DNA from: Bacteroidaceae bacterium
GTDB lineage: Bacteria; Bacteroidota; Bacteroidia; Bacteroidales; Bacteroidaceae
DNA: 38,906 nt
NCBI GenBank assembly: GCA_017461605.1
Contig: JAFTXN010000008.1
Location: 1 to 38,906 of the forward strand
Direction: 5' to 3'
Shown here piece by piece: positions 4,436-38,519 of this stretch. The notes below the pieces were generated by a model, which made no database searches, had not been told where the DNA came from, and saw nothing but the letters and a program-made list of their open reading frames with translations. The position numbers were made by a program, and so were the translations under genes. Positions within the stretch are counted from its first letter, which is position 1. The number at the start of each line of letters is the position of its first letter.

Positions 4436-6073
4436 ATGAAACGTTGCAAACATATTATCAGTGCTATTTTCCTGCTGTCCTTTGCTGCCATAGTAAGCAC
4501 GCAGCCGGCGATGGCACAACTCCGTGACAACAGCCAAGAATTTGACATGGAAGCCCTGCGCAAACTGCAAATTGCCGAAATGGCCATTGCACATCTGTAT
4601 GTCGACTCGGTGGACCAAAAGAAGCTGGTGGAGGATGCCATCAATGGTATGCTGAAGATGCTGGATCCACATTCGTCCTACACCAATGCGGAGGAGACGC
4701 GTCGCATGAATGAGCCGCTGGAGGGAAACTTCGAGGGCATAGGTGTGCAGTTCAACATTCTGGAGGATACCTTGGTGGTGATTCAGCCCACATCCAAGGG
4801 ACCGAGCGAACGAGCCGGTATCCTGGCCGGCGACCGCATTGTGAGTGTTGATGATCAGCCGATCGCCGGTGTCAAGATGAGTCGCGATAGCATCATGAAG
4901 AAGCTCCGTGGACCGAAAGACACGCAAGTGAAATTGGGCGTGGTGCGTCGGGGAGTAGACCATGTGCTGACATTCAACATTACGCGTGACAAAATACCTG
5001 TTAATACGCTTGACGCAGCCTATATGATAGCGCCAAAGGTGGGATACATCCATCTGGATCGCTTCGGGGCAACTACGGCAGCGGAAATGCGTGAAAAAAT
5101 CAAGGAGCTGCAGGCGGCCGGAATGAAAGACCTGATATTGGACTTGCAGCTGAATGGTGGAGGCTACCTGGGGGCAGCTATCAGTGTGGCCGGCGAGTTC
5201 TTGGAAAAGGACGACCTGATTGTGTATACCGAGGGGCGAAACACACCGGTCAGCCGCTTCACCGCAGAAGGTGGAGGCCTGTTCAGAGAGGGCCGTTTGG
5301 TGGTGTTGGTCGACGAATACTCAGCCTCGGCCTCCGAGATTGTGAGTGGCGCCATCCAGGACCACGACCGAGGTGTCATTGTGGGCCGTCGTACTTTTGG
5401 CAAGGGATTGGTGCAACGTCCCATCGAACTTCCTGATGGTTCGATGATACGCCTCACCGTGTCGCACTATTTCACACCCTCCGGCCGTTGCATTCAGAAG
5501 CCCTATGTCAAGGGTCACAAAGCCGAATATGACGATGATATGGAGCAGCGCTACAAGCACGGCGAACTGACGTGCATTGACAGCATTCACCTGGATTCTG
5601 CACAGGTGCACTACACGCTGAAGGAACATCGTAAGGTGTATGGAGGCGGTGGCATCATGCCTGATGTGTTTGTTCCGCTTGACACCGCAGTCTATACGCC
5701 CTATCTGCGTGCTGTGCGTCGGCATAACATCATCACCGATTTGGCCTTGCATTATGTGGATTACCATCGCGCTGAATTGCGGACCACTTATCCCGACTTC
5801 GACCGCTTCATCAACGAATACGAGGTGCCGGCGGCTCTGATCGATAGCGTAGCGGCACAAGCCAAGCGTAAGAAGGTGGTACCGGCTGATAGTGCAGAGT
5901 GGCAGAAATCGTTGCCGGATCTTCGCTTCCTGCTGAAGAGCCTCATTGCTTACAATGTGTGGGATCGCAACGAGTATTACCGCATACTCAACAGCCGTAG
6001 CGACATTGTGAAAAAGGCCTTGGAACTTCTGGCAACAGACGAAGGCAAGAAGAAACGCAAACGCAGCAAATAA
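4436..6073 (+). CDS. Secreted S41-family C-terminal processing peptidase (545 aa)
   Basis: Serine protease of the CtpA/Tsp family, which cleaves exported proteins near their C-terminus. Residues 1-27 look like a Sec signal peptide (basic MKRCKH, hydrophobic core, cut near AMAQ). A PDZ domain follows at about 85-170, with the GIGVQF carboxylate-binding loop. The peptidase core at about 190-360 contains LNGGGYLG, EYSASASEIVSGA and RRTFGKGLVQ. The catalytic pair is Ser298 and Lys323, and their 25-residue spacing equals that of E. coli Tsp. The C-terminal ~180 residues are less conserved, with a very basic end (KKKRKRSK). It lies 62 nt after coaD. I see no terminator after it. Confidence 0.88.
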   Translation: MKRCKHIISAIFLLSFAAIVSTQPAMAQLRDNSQEFDMEALRKLQIAEMAIAHLYVDSVDQKKLVEDAINGMLKMLDPHSSYTNAEETRRMNEPLEGNFEGIGVQFNILEDTLVVIQPTSKGPSERAGILAGDRIVSVDDQPIAGVKMSRDSIMKKLRGPKDTQVKLGVVRRGVDHVLTFNITRDKIPVNTLDAAYMIAPKVGYIHLDRFGATTAAEMREKIKELQAAGMKDLILDLQLNGGGYLGAAISVAGEFLEKDDLIVYTEGRNTPVSRFTAEGGGLFREGRLVVLVDEYSASASEIVSGAIQDHDRGVIVGRRTFGKGLVQRPIELPDGSMIRLTVSHYFTPSGRCIQKPYVKGHKAEYDDDMEQRYKHGELTCIDSIHLDSAQVHYTLKEHRKVYGGGGIMPDVFVPLDTAVYTPYLRAVRRHNIITDLALHYVDYHRAELRTTYPDFDRFINEYEVPAALIDSVAAQAKRKKVVPADSAEWQKSLPDLRFLLKSLIAYNVWDRNEYYRILNSRSDIVKKALELLATDEGKKKRKRSK

Positions 6074-35678: not shown

Positions 35679-35769
35679 TCAATGAATTTTGCGGAAGCAC
35701 GGACTTCATGGTGCCACCTGCAGTGTTAGCTTGGTGGAAAAGTGCCGTGGAATGTCAGATGCCCACACC

Positions 35770-35848
35770 GCAATGCAGCCATTGCTGCGTCATGTTTTAT
35801 ATTGTTGCTACAATAAATGTAAGAGGAGAGCGGAATGTTGTACCTTTG
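35770..35848 (+). promoter_or_regulatory. umuDC promoter with two candidate operators
   Basis: TACCTTTG (35841-35848) is a perfect -7 box only 8 nt before the umuD ATG, so the transcript should be nearly leaderless. No good -33 box is present. Two inverted repeats lie upstream: GCAATG-CAGC-CATTGC (35770-35785) and ATTGT-TGCT-ACAAT (35801-35814). Either could be the site of a damage-responsive repressor (inference). Confidence 0.55.
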
Positions 35849-35856
35849 CTACCACT

Positions 35857-36285
35857 ATGGATAAGTTTGTACCACATACCATCGATGTAGCAGAATCGTA
35901 CGAGAGCCATCTGCTGGGAGATGTGAAAGCCGGATTTCCATCGCCGTCAGAAGATGTACGTGAGAAGTTGGACCTTGTCAAGTTGCTTGTCAGAAACCGG
36001 GCTTCCACTTTCTTCTTCCGTGTAAACGGAGTCTCAATGGTGGATGCAGATATAGACGAGGGTGACATTATTATTGTAGACAGAGCCGTTGCTCCATACA
36101 ACAACTGTAAGGCTGTTTGCTATATCGATGGCGAATACACCGTCAAGCGTGTGGAGATTGGCGATAACAAAGTCCGGTTGATGCCGGCCAATGAGAATAA
36201 CAAGGCCTATAAGCCCATAGAAGTAACGGCGGAGAACGATTTTCTAATTTGGGGCGTCGTTACCTATGTCATCAAGAAGATGTAG
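35857..36285 (+). CDS. umuD: UmuD-type self-cleaving S24 peptidase, DNA polymerase V accessory subunit
   Basis: LexA-fold serine peptidase that cleaves itself on RecA filaments to give UmuD', the partner of UmuC in translesion synthesis. With the ATG at 35857 the catalytic residues are Ser60 (RVNGVSMVDA) and Lys97 (GEYTVKRVE), the same numbers as E. coli UmuD. The cleavage site is Ala25-Gly26 (DVKAGFPSP). 142 aa matches UmuD and there is no DNA-binding domain, so it is not LexA. umuC starts 2 nt after its stop. Confidence 0.93.
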   Translation: MDKFVPHTIDVAESYESHLLGDVKAGFPSPSEDVREKLDLVKLLVRNRASTFFFRVNGVSMVDADIDEGDIIIVDRAVAPYNNCKAVCYIDGEYTVKRVEIGDNKVRLMPANENNKAYKPIEVTAENDFLIWGVVTYVIKKM

Positions 36286-36287
36286 CG

Positions 36288-37553
36288 ATGTTTGCCCTGG
36301 CCGATTGTAACAACTTCTTTGCTTCTTGTGAGCGGGTATTCCGTCCCGACTTGCGAGGGAAACCCGTCATTGTCTTGTCGAACAATGACGGCTGCGCTAT
36401 TGCAAGAAGCAACGAAGCCAAGGCCTTGGGTATAAAGATGGGAGCACCGTTTTTTAAGATAAGAGACATTGTCAGAAGGCATAATGTAGCGGTGTTTTCC
36501 GGAAATATGGCACTCTATGGCGATATGTCGCAACGGGTTCGTTGGGTGTTGGAAGAGTTTGCTCCCGGCATCGAGGTCTATTCCATCGATGAGGCATTCT
36601 TGGATCTCAGGGGGATGAAAAATATAGACTTTGATGCGTATGCGAAGCGTATCTCTGCACAATGTAGGAAGATGACCTCTATCCCGGTTTCGGTAGGCAT
36701 CGCTCCGACCAAGACGCTTGCCAAGATAGCCTCGAAACTCTGCAAGCAATATCCGAAACTGAGAGGCGGTTGCTACATGCATCGCCCGCAGGACATTGAA
36801 AAGGTGTTGCGCAAGTTCCCGATAGAGGAAGTTTGGGGCATTGGGCGTCGCTCTGCTCCGAAGTTGAAAGCGAGGGGTGTCAATACTGCATACGAGTTTA
36901 CGCAATTGCCCGAAGGAGTTGTGCGGATGATGCTTGGCATTGGTGGTGTCAGAACATGGAAAGAACTGCGAGGCATCCCTTGCCTAGAGTTTGAAGACGG
37001 ATTTGAGGCAAAGCAGTCGATATGCGTTTCGCGCAGTTTCTCTTCCGAGATATATGAGGTGAAGGAACTGCAGGAGCAAATTGCTAATTTTGCTTCCGCT
37101 ATGGCAAGTAAGTTGCGCCAGCAGCAGTCGGTAACATCGGAAATGGTGGTTTTCGCCTATACCAATCGTTTCAGGGAGGATGTGCCGCAGATACATGCCA
37201 ACACCCTTGTGTCATTCATCACTCCCACAGCCGAGGAGCGTATCATCATTGCGCAAGCTGTGAGTGCCGCCAAAACCCTGTTTAAGCAAGGCTTTGGATA
37301 TAAGAAAGCGGGAGTGATTGCCACGAAGATAGTTCCCGAGAAGCATGTGATGCACTCGTTGTTTGAAGACCGGGAAGCCGTCGAGCGCGAGCACAAGATA
37401 ACATCAGCCTTGGATGCCATCAATGCTACCTTTGGTAAAGGAACCATCAAATTGGCCGTTCAGGGAAGTGGAGAAATCAAGTCGTCGAGTGAAAATCAAT
37501 CGCCACACTACACGACGCGATGGAGCGATATCCCCCACGTAACAATCAAATAG
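36288..37553 (+). CDS. umuC: Y-family DNA polymerase V catalytic subunit
   Basis: Error-prone translesion polymerase. The metal-binding residues are Asp6 (ALADCNNFF) and Asp101-Glu102 (YSIDEAFLDL), at the same positions as in E. coli UmuC. Also present are VLSNNDGCAIARSNEAKALG, SVGIAPTKTLAKIASKL and the helix-hairpin-helix-like WGIGRRSAPKLKARGV. The C-terminus ends SPHYTTRWSDIP, the usual UmuC tail. 421 aa. It forms a two-gene operon with umuD. The 230 bp after it show no terminator and no gene. Confidence 0.95.
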   Translation: MFALADCNNFFASCERVFRPDLRGKPVIVLSNNDGCAIARSNEAKALGIKMGAPFFKIRDIVRRHNVAVFSGNMALYGDMSQRVRWVLEEFAPGIEVYSIDEAFLDLRGMKNIDFDAYAKRISAQCRKMTSIPVSVGIAPTKTLAKIASKLCKQYPKLRGGCYMHRPQDIEKVLRKFPIEEVWGIGRRSAPKLKARGVNTAYEFTQLPEGVVRMMLGIGGVRTWKELRGIPCLEFEDGFEAKQSICVSRSFSSEIYEVKELQEQIANFASAMASKLRQQQSVTSEMVVFAYTNRFREDVPQIHANTLVSFITPTAEERIIIAQAVSAAKTLFKQGFGYKKAGVIATKIVPEKHVMHSLFEDREAVEREHKITSALDAINATFGKGTIKLAVQGSGEIKSSSENQSPHYTTRWSDIPHVTIK

Positions 37554-37783: not shown

Positions 37784-37791
37784 TACATTTG
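37784..37791 (+). promoter_or_regulatory. -7 box of the structured leader
   Basis: TACATTTG, a perfect TAnnTTTG. The expected start of transcription is about 37797, directly in front of the first leader hairpin. The -33 region is A/T-rich without a clear TTTG. Confidence 0.6.
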
Positions 37792-37796
37792 CGGCA

Positions 37797-38114
37797 AGAC
37801 GGAGAAGTTCCGTTTGCGACATATTGAAATAACGTAGAAGCGTTATGCTAGTCTTGTAACATTGAAACCTAGGAAATTTCAAAGTACATACAAGGGATGG
37901 CATAGTGGTTCTCACGCGTATAGCGTGGGCTGCTACCCCATTTGTGTATGTACGGGTTTTCCTAGGACCTCAATGTTTAGAATGGCACACCAGTCCCACG
38001 CTTTGTGCGTATTATAATAAACATTGTTCTTTGGGGATTGGAGGACGAGAGGGAGCCTAGGGTTAAGACAGGCTTCCAAGTAAGAATAAATCTAATCACA
38101 ATAAACAATAAATT
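37797..38114 (+). ncRNA. Candidate structured 5' leader or small RNA
   Basis: Ordered stems can be drawn. H1 ACGGA/TCCGT (37799-37813). H2 ATAACG/CGTTAT (37829-37846). A long nested domain at 37858-37977: AACATTGA/TCAATGTT, CCTAGGAAA/TTTCCTAGG, GTACATAC/GTATGTAC and a tip CTCACGC/GCGTGGG. H5 GGGAGCCT/AGGCTTCC (38051-38077). Two rival pairings exist: CAATGTTTA (37971-37979) with TAAACATTG (38018-38026, 9 bp), and AGCGTGGG (37922-37929) with CCCACGCT (37995-38002, 8 bp). Each would break a helix of the long domain. The RNA ends 30-40 nt before the ATG of the leucine-rich repeat gene. I do not recognise a known family; 6S-type or Bacteroidales-specific RNAs are alternatives. Confidence 0.55.
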
Positions 38115-38519
38115 ATGGAAAAACTCAGAACTTTCTTATTGGCATTCTTAATGCTGATAGGTTGTGTAACAGTGTCGGCTTATGACGTCGAAGTGGACGG
38201 GATATATTATGACCTAGACTCAACGTCGCATGAGGCGAAAGTAACGTACAAGGCACTTGATGGGAATGTTAATCAGAGCGATTATTCTGGTGATGTTGTA
38301 ATTCCTACAACAATTTCTGTTGAAGGGGTGGCTTATGGTGTTGCTTCTATTGGAGATTATGCGTTCAGAGGTTGCAGTGGTCTGACTTCCATTGCGCTTC
38401 CCGAAGGTGTCACCTCTATTGGAAATTGGGCGTTCAATGGTTGCAGTGGTCTAACTTCCATTGCGCTTCCGGATGGGGTTACTGCTATTGGATACGAAAC
38501 CTTTTCTGATTGTATTTAG
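38115..38519 (+). pseudogene. BspA-type leucine-rich repeat surface protein, truncated
   Basis: 134-aa exported protein. Residues 1-22 are a signal peptide (MEKLRTFLLAFLMLIGCVTV, cut near VSA). A beta region follows (VDGIYYDLDSTS...). Then come 23-residue LRR_5 repeats: one at 38349-38417, a second at 38418-38486 and a third that breaks off after IGYETFSDC. Repeats have the pattern IGxxAFxGCSGLTSIALPxGVTx. Family members usually have many more repeats and often a C-terminal sorting domain; here a stop (TAG at 38517-38519) comes two codons after the repeat pattern is lost. It is most likely truncated by an insertion. A short functional protein is possible. Confidence 0.7.

Follow-up and report, generated by a model that had tools for sequence, protein, structure and literature searches.

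A leader RNA with two mutually exclusive, covarying folds in front of unrelated genes of Bacteroidales, probably a regulatory switch

The leader in the window

The window, by which we mean the whole stretch of 38,906 nucleotides that was analysed, ends with its contig at position 38906, downstream of a short open reading frame (ORF) of BspA type. Positions 35689-37553 hold two genes, one for a UmuD-like S24 peptidase and one for a UmuC-like Y-family polymerase, and the leader studied here lies 3' of them (Table 1). At one other locus (L011) the polymerase gene and the leader are kept and a different gene stands behind. The original prediction had described this leader as a highly structured RNA following a promoter box; the box, the paired strands and the repeated motifs (AACATTG twice, CCTAGG three times, CACGC twice, ATGGCA twice) are all where it had placed them, and the nested domain 37858-37977 which it drew is part of the minimum-energy fold. 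The two alternative pairings that it listed can indeed be formed: AGCGTGGG (37922-37929) with CCCACGCT (37995-38002), and CAATGTTTA (37971-37979) with TAAACATTG (38018-38026).

The minimum energy of 37797-38114 is -108.8 kcal/mol, which none of 100 shuffled sequences reaches (z -6.85), and the part 37850-38030 has a z of -5.2 (none of 200 shuffles as good). This structure is more than chance since homologues exist. They show that the conserved unit covers only about 170 nt of the leader and that the hairpin displaying a strand in its loop comes after it. The window copy is placed 110 nt before its ATG, against a usual distance of 40-75 nt (about 50 nt).

Table 1. Features of the leader in the window. 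Values of z come from the exchange of helix arms among copies (93 canonical copies; 70 others, remote and class together) unless another sample is given.
Feature	Position	Strand	Basis
-7 promoter box TACATTTG	37784-37791	+	sequence; box of TAnnTTTG type
transcript 5' hairpin	37797-37815	+	minimum-energy fold; arm covariation z -18.3 (n=127 canonical copies)
conserved leader RNA element	37836-38005	+	match of covariance model R1, 162.7 bits
strand A5	37841-37858	+	helix A partner 37889-37907 in state II; z -8.7 canonical, -12.5 others
strand A3	37889-37907	+	pairs with A5 in state II; belongs to P2/P3 in state I
P1 5' strand (P1a)	37858-37876 (37858-37865 and 37868-37876)	+	minimum-energy fold; z -24.1 canonical, -24.4 others
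P1 3' strand (P1b)	37958-37977 (37958-37966 and 37970-37977)	+	minimum-energy fold; arm-exchange covariation
P2 helix, enclosing P3 and P4	37884-37892 with 37945-37953	+	minimum-energy fold
P4 hairpin CTCACGC/GCGTGGG, state I	37911-37929	+	fold; z -0.9 canonical (not significant), -9.8 others
strand B5 GCGTGGGCTG	37923-37932	+	helix B with 37991-38001 in state II; z -3.8 canonical, -13.1 others
strand B3 CAGTCCCACGC	37991-38001	+	used by helices B, D (CAGTCCC) and P0 (ACGC)
D 3' strand GGGATTG	38034-38040	+	partner CAGTCCC 37991-37997; in the window minimum-energy fold; z -9.6 canonical, -8.5 others
P6 hairpin, D strand displayed in loop	38026-38046	+	folds alone, -3.4 kcal/mol; absent from the minimum-energy fold of the whole leader
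downstream ORF, 134 aa, short BspA-type fragment	38115-38519	+	partial LRR_5 match

Homologues and their neighbouring genes

A covariance-model search with R1 finds four matches in the genome which carries the window: two canonical copies, at C5:37836 (the window copy) and C4:126220, and two remote ones, at C9:314587 and C9:151131. In the order, R1 matches occur in 49 of 148 genomes, this one included, with scores of 116-179 bits for the canonical group (plus four degraded copies at 45-83 bits) and of 44-97 bits for the remote group; a single genome holds up to 15 matches. A survey of the phylum gave matches in 15 of 296 genomes, again counting our own, and the other 14 all belong to the same class, with one weak match each (36-70 bits) whose architecture, when read, proves to be the same. 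We refer to these weak single copies, which take the family into other orders, as class copies. Matches by DNA similarity are present in 21 of 101 genomes, own included, and at least 119 stretches of a species-level genome collection match a degenerate pattern. Among the pattern matches listed, 117 of 119 are Bacteroidales by title, the carriers including Bacteroides, Phocaeicola, Parabacteroides, Alistipes, Prevotella, Segatella, Muribaculaceae, Barnesiella and others; the two remaining titles, Clostridia (L048) and Roseburia (L137), are both metagenome bins and were perhaps mis-assigned. Phages were rejected as a main carrier: 2 of 50,697 phage records match, and an exact pattern finds 10 stretches of a viral collection. 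Two of the loci collected, L016 and L057, are identical. Tandem copies in the same orientation, 1.1-1.4 kb apart, are seen at L020 (1518-1687 and 2967-3133) and L208 (401-564 and 1526-1689).

Comparison with Rfam 15 by covariance-model search, covering the 6S, 6S-Flavo and Bacteroidales-1 families to which the original prediction had pointed, placed no family on the element in 40 sources (the window and 39 loci). The only matches at gathering score are a tRNA in the window and the FopS small RNA (RF04319) at L055:4662-4728, outside the element and about 430 nt upstream of the leader copy which begins at 5154 of that locus. Nor did we find a recognisable description of the leader in open-licence papers, a scope which does not establish its absence in print.

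The position of the element relative to promoters and genes is strict. A TAnnTTTG box is found at most 90 nt upstream of 124 of the 134 canonical copies, where random positions would give 6.8, and of 26 of the 52 remote ones, where they would give 3.7. A same-strand ORF starts 40-75 nt downstream in 118 of the 134 canonical copies, where a mirrored control gives 3 and random positions 22.6, and in 31 of the 52 remote copies, where these controls give 1 and 6.5. When six loci which repeat others or are degenerate are left out, an ATG ORF begins within 170 nt in 192 of 207 copies, and at 40-75 nt in 142. Six class copies (L232, L233, L234, L238, L240 and L241) have no ORF start within 220 nt, and a seventh (L235) only a doubtful one. 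The copies of L233, L234, L235, L238, L240 and L241 are single copies from outside Bacteroidales, with no clear near gene and often with a T-run after the core, and may be stand-alone RNAs. Two of them, L234 and L241, have a divergent ORF some 115-122 nt upstream. A candidate small ORF ahead of the gene, read as ATGCTTATCTTGTAA in many of the canonical copies, was dropped by eye; the remote copies listed mostly have GCGTTAGC and no ATG.

The genes behind the leader are diverse. Their 187 distinct proteins form 130 clusters, 104 of them singletons, and the largest cluster holds 12 exported proteins of one family, which share the motif F(L/K)G(I/F)P(V/I)(D/E)G. This secreted family, whose function is unassigned, is encoded by the first gene behind the leader at each of its loci (L043, L056, L066, L067, L069, L101, L109, L111, L143, L146, L155 and L156). 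A Pfam scan, which covered 139 of the 187 proteins, gave at most five members per family (Zn_ribbon_2 5, LRR_5 4, SH3_3, cNMP_binding and TerB 3 each, DarT 2, Beta-lactamase2 1). A signal- or membrane-like N-terminal segment is carried by 124 of the 187 proteins, compared with 162 of 674 background ORFs, as judged by our own hydrophobicity rule and with spurious ORFs among the background. The original prediction had tied the leader to surface-protein genes of BspA type; with the LRR_5 repeat in only 4 of the 139 scanned proteins this tie is not supported, and a BspA-specific leader was rejected. We likewise rejected a common role in defence, DarT being matched by 2 of the 139 proteins and other PADLOC families mostly by single ones, and the idea that one gene always stands upstream: among the 25 families listed out of 108, Mob_Pre occurs in 8 of 104 upstream proteins, Relaxase in 2 and the rest in 1 to 4.

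Two exclusive sets of pairings

Read from 5' to 3', the leader consists of the 5' hairpin, A5, P1a, P2a, A3, the P4 hairpin, B5, P2b, P1b and B3, after which come the P6 hairpin with the D strand in its loop and the start codon. Four of its strands (A5, A3, B5 and B3) can be paired in two ways. In state I, A5 pairs with B3 (P0) and A3 with B5 (P3) around P1, P2 and P4, so that one long nested hairpin is formed; in state II, A5 pairs with A3 (helix A) and B5 with B3 (helix B), which gives two hairpins side by side.

Because the helices shift register between copies, we set the energy of the duplex which a copy forms with its own arms against that obtained with arms swapped among copies (2000 permutations), a statistic which ignores the tree. 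One set contains 93 canonical copies out of 154 rows (four rows had no flank and the rest were dropped as near-duplicates), the other 70 copies, 56 remote and 14 class. For the remote part 58 of 60 matches were taken, an antisense echo in L177 and one tandem copy of L208 being left out, and L171 and L199 were then removed since no P4 strand was found in them. P1 and the helices A, B and D covary in both sets (Table 1). The values are lower for P0 (z -3.1 canonical, -4.2 others) and P3 (z -2.4 and -5.9), and P2, in a rough test on windows, gives -3.2 for 86 canonical copies and -2.6 for 11 others. P4 covaries in the other copies and shows no significant covariation among the 93 canonical ones. 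Four unrelated strand pairs used as controls stay at an absolute z of 1.2 or below, and controls with reversed arms within 1.6, except for P1 (-4.3 and -3.8) and, in the set of 70, for D (-3.4). With the exception of P1, the helices lose strength on the antisense strand, which points to selection at the level of RNA.

An alignment of 28 rows was examined column by column. For state I, 96.6 per cent of the cells are paired and 87 cells have changes on both sides, a number equalled in none of 500 shuffles; 10 pairs have such changes, which 92 of 500 shuffles reach. For the columns of A and B together, 91.3 per cent of the cells are paired (0 of 500 shuffles equal) and the covariation score is equalled by 3 of 500 shuffles; the count of pairs changed on both sides, four, is weak, being reached in 46 of 500.

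The original prediction had proposed two mutually exclusive pairing sets and, from them, a two-state regulatory RNA. One of its pairings, AGCGTGGG with CCCACGCT, is helix B, which is conserved and covaries; the other, CAATGTTTA with TAAACATTG, does not covary (z -0.1 in the 93 canonical copies, -1.7 in the 70 others) and has to be given up as part of a switch. The second alternative helix is instead A, which had been missed, and which is exclusive with state I and covaries. A two-state RNA is thus supported, with covarying helices and outside Rfam, and a switching function would be consistent with them. A further candidate, helix E (A5 with the strand before CAG), was dropped for want of covariation (z 0.2 and -1.0). 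What had been noticed in the window was correct, and it is one copy of a larger family of leaders. We are confident that this structured leader is real, widespread and outside Rfam, and that it has two exclusive covarying folds.

The energy model also predicts an order of events. When the RNA is cut after the P4 strand, helix A is predicted in all 93 canonical copies and in 64 of the 70 others; with P1b added it disappears from every copy of both sets, and in the full-length element A is predicted in 2 of 93 and 1 of 70 copies and B in 1 of 93 and 1 of 70. Forcing B alone, where this can be done (74 of 93 canonical, 42 of 56 remote and 10 of 14 class copies), makes A return in 67, 33 and 8 of them respectively; the average penalty is 11.3, 14.3 and 9.2 kcal/mol. 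Since forcing B restores A, the exchange is cooperative in the model. The finished RNA is thus predicted to prefer state I by about 9-14 kcal/mol, and without help the model never ends in state II. For the window copy, forcing A or forcing B leads to the identical state II, at -94.2 compared with -108.8 kcal/mol, and forcing the CAATGTTTA pairing is cheaper than state II (-98.3 kcal/mol). If the RNA stops at the end of the element, 80 of 93 copies are predicted to form P0, and 29 of 93 if 60 nt are added; like P6, this helix is absent from the minimum-energy fold of the window.

Helices B and D exclude each other, because both need the B3 strand with its CAGNNCC. Matches for D at the set score are found in 80 of 93 canonical, 39 of 56 remote and 12 of 14 class copies, and in 40, 26 and 6 of them in a reversed control with one draw per copy, so that chance matches are common. 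A stem surrounds the D match in 58 of the 80 canonical copies where random placement would give 27.5, in 21 of the 39 remote ones (13.1 expected) and in 9 of the 12 class ones (3.9 expected).

A probable switch, its alternatives and comparable systems

Two exclusive folds in front of many unrelated accessory genes suggest a shared control switch for exchangeable genes. The leader is probably a regulatory switch acting on the gene behind it, and a new family of bistable cis-regulatory mRNA leaders is the reading which we favour, with some reserve as to the signal and the regulatory output. The leader would act in cis, 5' of unrelated accessory genes, in Bacteroidales and more widely in the class. 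Helix A would arise in the nascent RNA and be displaced once P2 and P1 are complete; the finished RNA would, according to the energy model, settle in state I, and the loop of P6, between the element and the start codon, would pair with CAGNNCC to form helix D. The RNA might be held in state II by a ligand, by a protein or by the speed at which it is transcribed, in which case B would be kept and D blocked, and the structure beside the start codon, and with it translation, would be altered.

The folded 5' end could instead be a constitutive module which stabilises the mRNA or boosts the translation of freshly acquired genes, helix A being a mere folding intermediate. State I does dominate in the finished RNA as modelled, the downstream genes have no common function, and the comparison of copies shows that the leader is transmitted together with its promoter. 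However, the strands of A and B covary, for which there would be no need with one stable fold, and we regard this explanation as rather doubtful.

Somewhat less probable still is an attenuator, in which helix B or a closed hairpin, followed by a U-run, would form an intrinsic terminator in competition with P4 and state I, some copies being complete terminated RNAs. Behind the CACGC core, 35 of the 56 remote copies and 7 of the 14 class copies have a run of at least six T, B covaries strongly in these same groups, and the class copies lacking a clear near ORF would fit terminated RNAs. In the canonical group, to which the window belongs, the run is present in only 6 of 93 copies, however; the finished RNA is predicted almost never to favour B; and D and P6 are located past the U-run, so that read-through would be needed. 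As the T-run is mostly found in remote and class copies and rarely in canonical ones, the groups may differ in output. For the bistable switch, this output would perhaps be translation in the canonical group; for remote copies, whose CCCACGC is often followed by a U-run, it may be termination instead.

The genes adjoining the leader are exchanged. Among 10,118 aligned pairs of 154 copies (from 151 loci, some of which are the same place twice), 136 have 200 nt or more in common upstream but under 60 downstream, 73 show the reverse pattern and 14 share both sides. These pairs cannot be treated as independent. In 14 one-sided pairs which we inspected, homology runs through the element and stops between -35 and +43 nt of its end, and L145 and L155 differ in the first gene alone, with 0.77 kb before it and 3.5 kb after it shared. 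One could see here an integron-like DNA recombination site where cargo genes insert. Yet random copies of the element are about 75 per cent identical, and as the element is conserved everywhere, one-sided homology would stop at its border anyway; the antisense helices are weaker except P1, the spacing to start codons and promoter box is strict, and most copies do not flank a gene on both sides. Exchange of the genes does not imply that the element causes it, and we hold a recombination site to be improbable. In one visible case the exchange is seen behind a mobilisation gene: on the plasmid pBUN1 (L245 4001-5126), typed as mobilizable, the leader lies between mobV and the beta-lactamase gene blaMUN-1, 49 nt before the latter; on a circular record of Parabacteroides distasonis (L247 4001-5444), typed as non-mobilizable, it closely precedes a DUF4433 gene whose product matches DarT.

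A trans-acting or 6S-like small RNA, next to genes by chance, is the least credible of all: some genomes outside Bacteroidales do have a single copy without a near ORF, but neither 6S nor any other Rfam family matches in the 40 sources, genomes may hold several copies, and most canonical copies have the near same-strand ORF counted above (118 of 134).

If the bistable switch is accepted, a bolder and quite tentative extension may be considered, namely that the leader is a portable socket, at the same time a gene switch and a junction for the exchange of accessory genes in Bacteroidia. Its cargo might be a DarT-like gene, a beta-lactamase, surface proteins or lipoproteins, and a new gene could come at once under one RNA signal through the refolding of the nascent transcript. 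Were the switch to be confirmed, many uncharacterised and often exported proteins of dominant gut bacteria would form one hidden RNA-controlled regulon, the signal of which would become directly searchable by experiment. It would also show exchanged genes arriving with ready-made regulation, and would provide a deeply conserved natural example of an mRNA leader whose strands change partners during transcription.

Other structured RNAs restricted to an order or to the phylum have been obtained by comparative genomics of Bacteroidetes, and include Bacteroidales-1, Bacteroides-1, Flavo-1 and 6S-Flavo (PMC2864571). The comparison covered those with an Rfam entry, which do not match the leader; Bacteroides-2 is given no Rfam accession in that paper. 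No Rfam riboswitch matches the leader in the 40 sources either.

Integron cassette sites are structured sites behind which single genes differ between relatives, as they do here; the leader differs from them in that it precedes the gene, has its own promoter and folds less well on the antisense strand. With riboswitches of second-messenger type, such as those for c-di-GMP, where one structured leader with exclusive folds stands before many unrelated genes in several copies per genome, the likeness extends to all these traits, the exclusive covarying folds of the present leader being subject to the limits given above, among them those of the A and B column counts. The mRNAs of hok type have metastable 5' hairpins and belong to toxin-antitoxin pairs with an antisense RNA. 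Our leader is common to unrelated genes, and no small-toxin coding of the hok kind was found among its diverse downstream proteins (187, of which 139 by Pfam); what it shares with hok, in silico, is a hairpin of the nascent RNA which is replaced by a long-range fold at completion.
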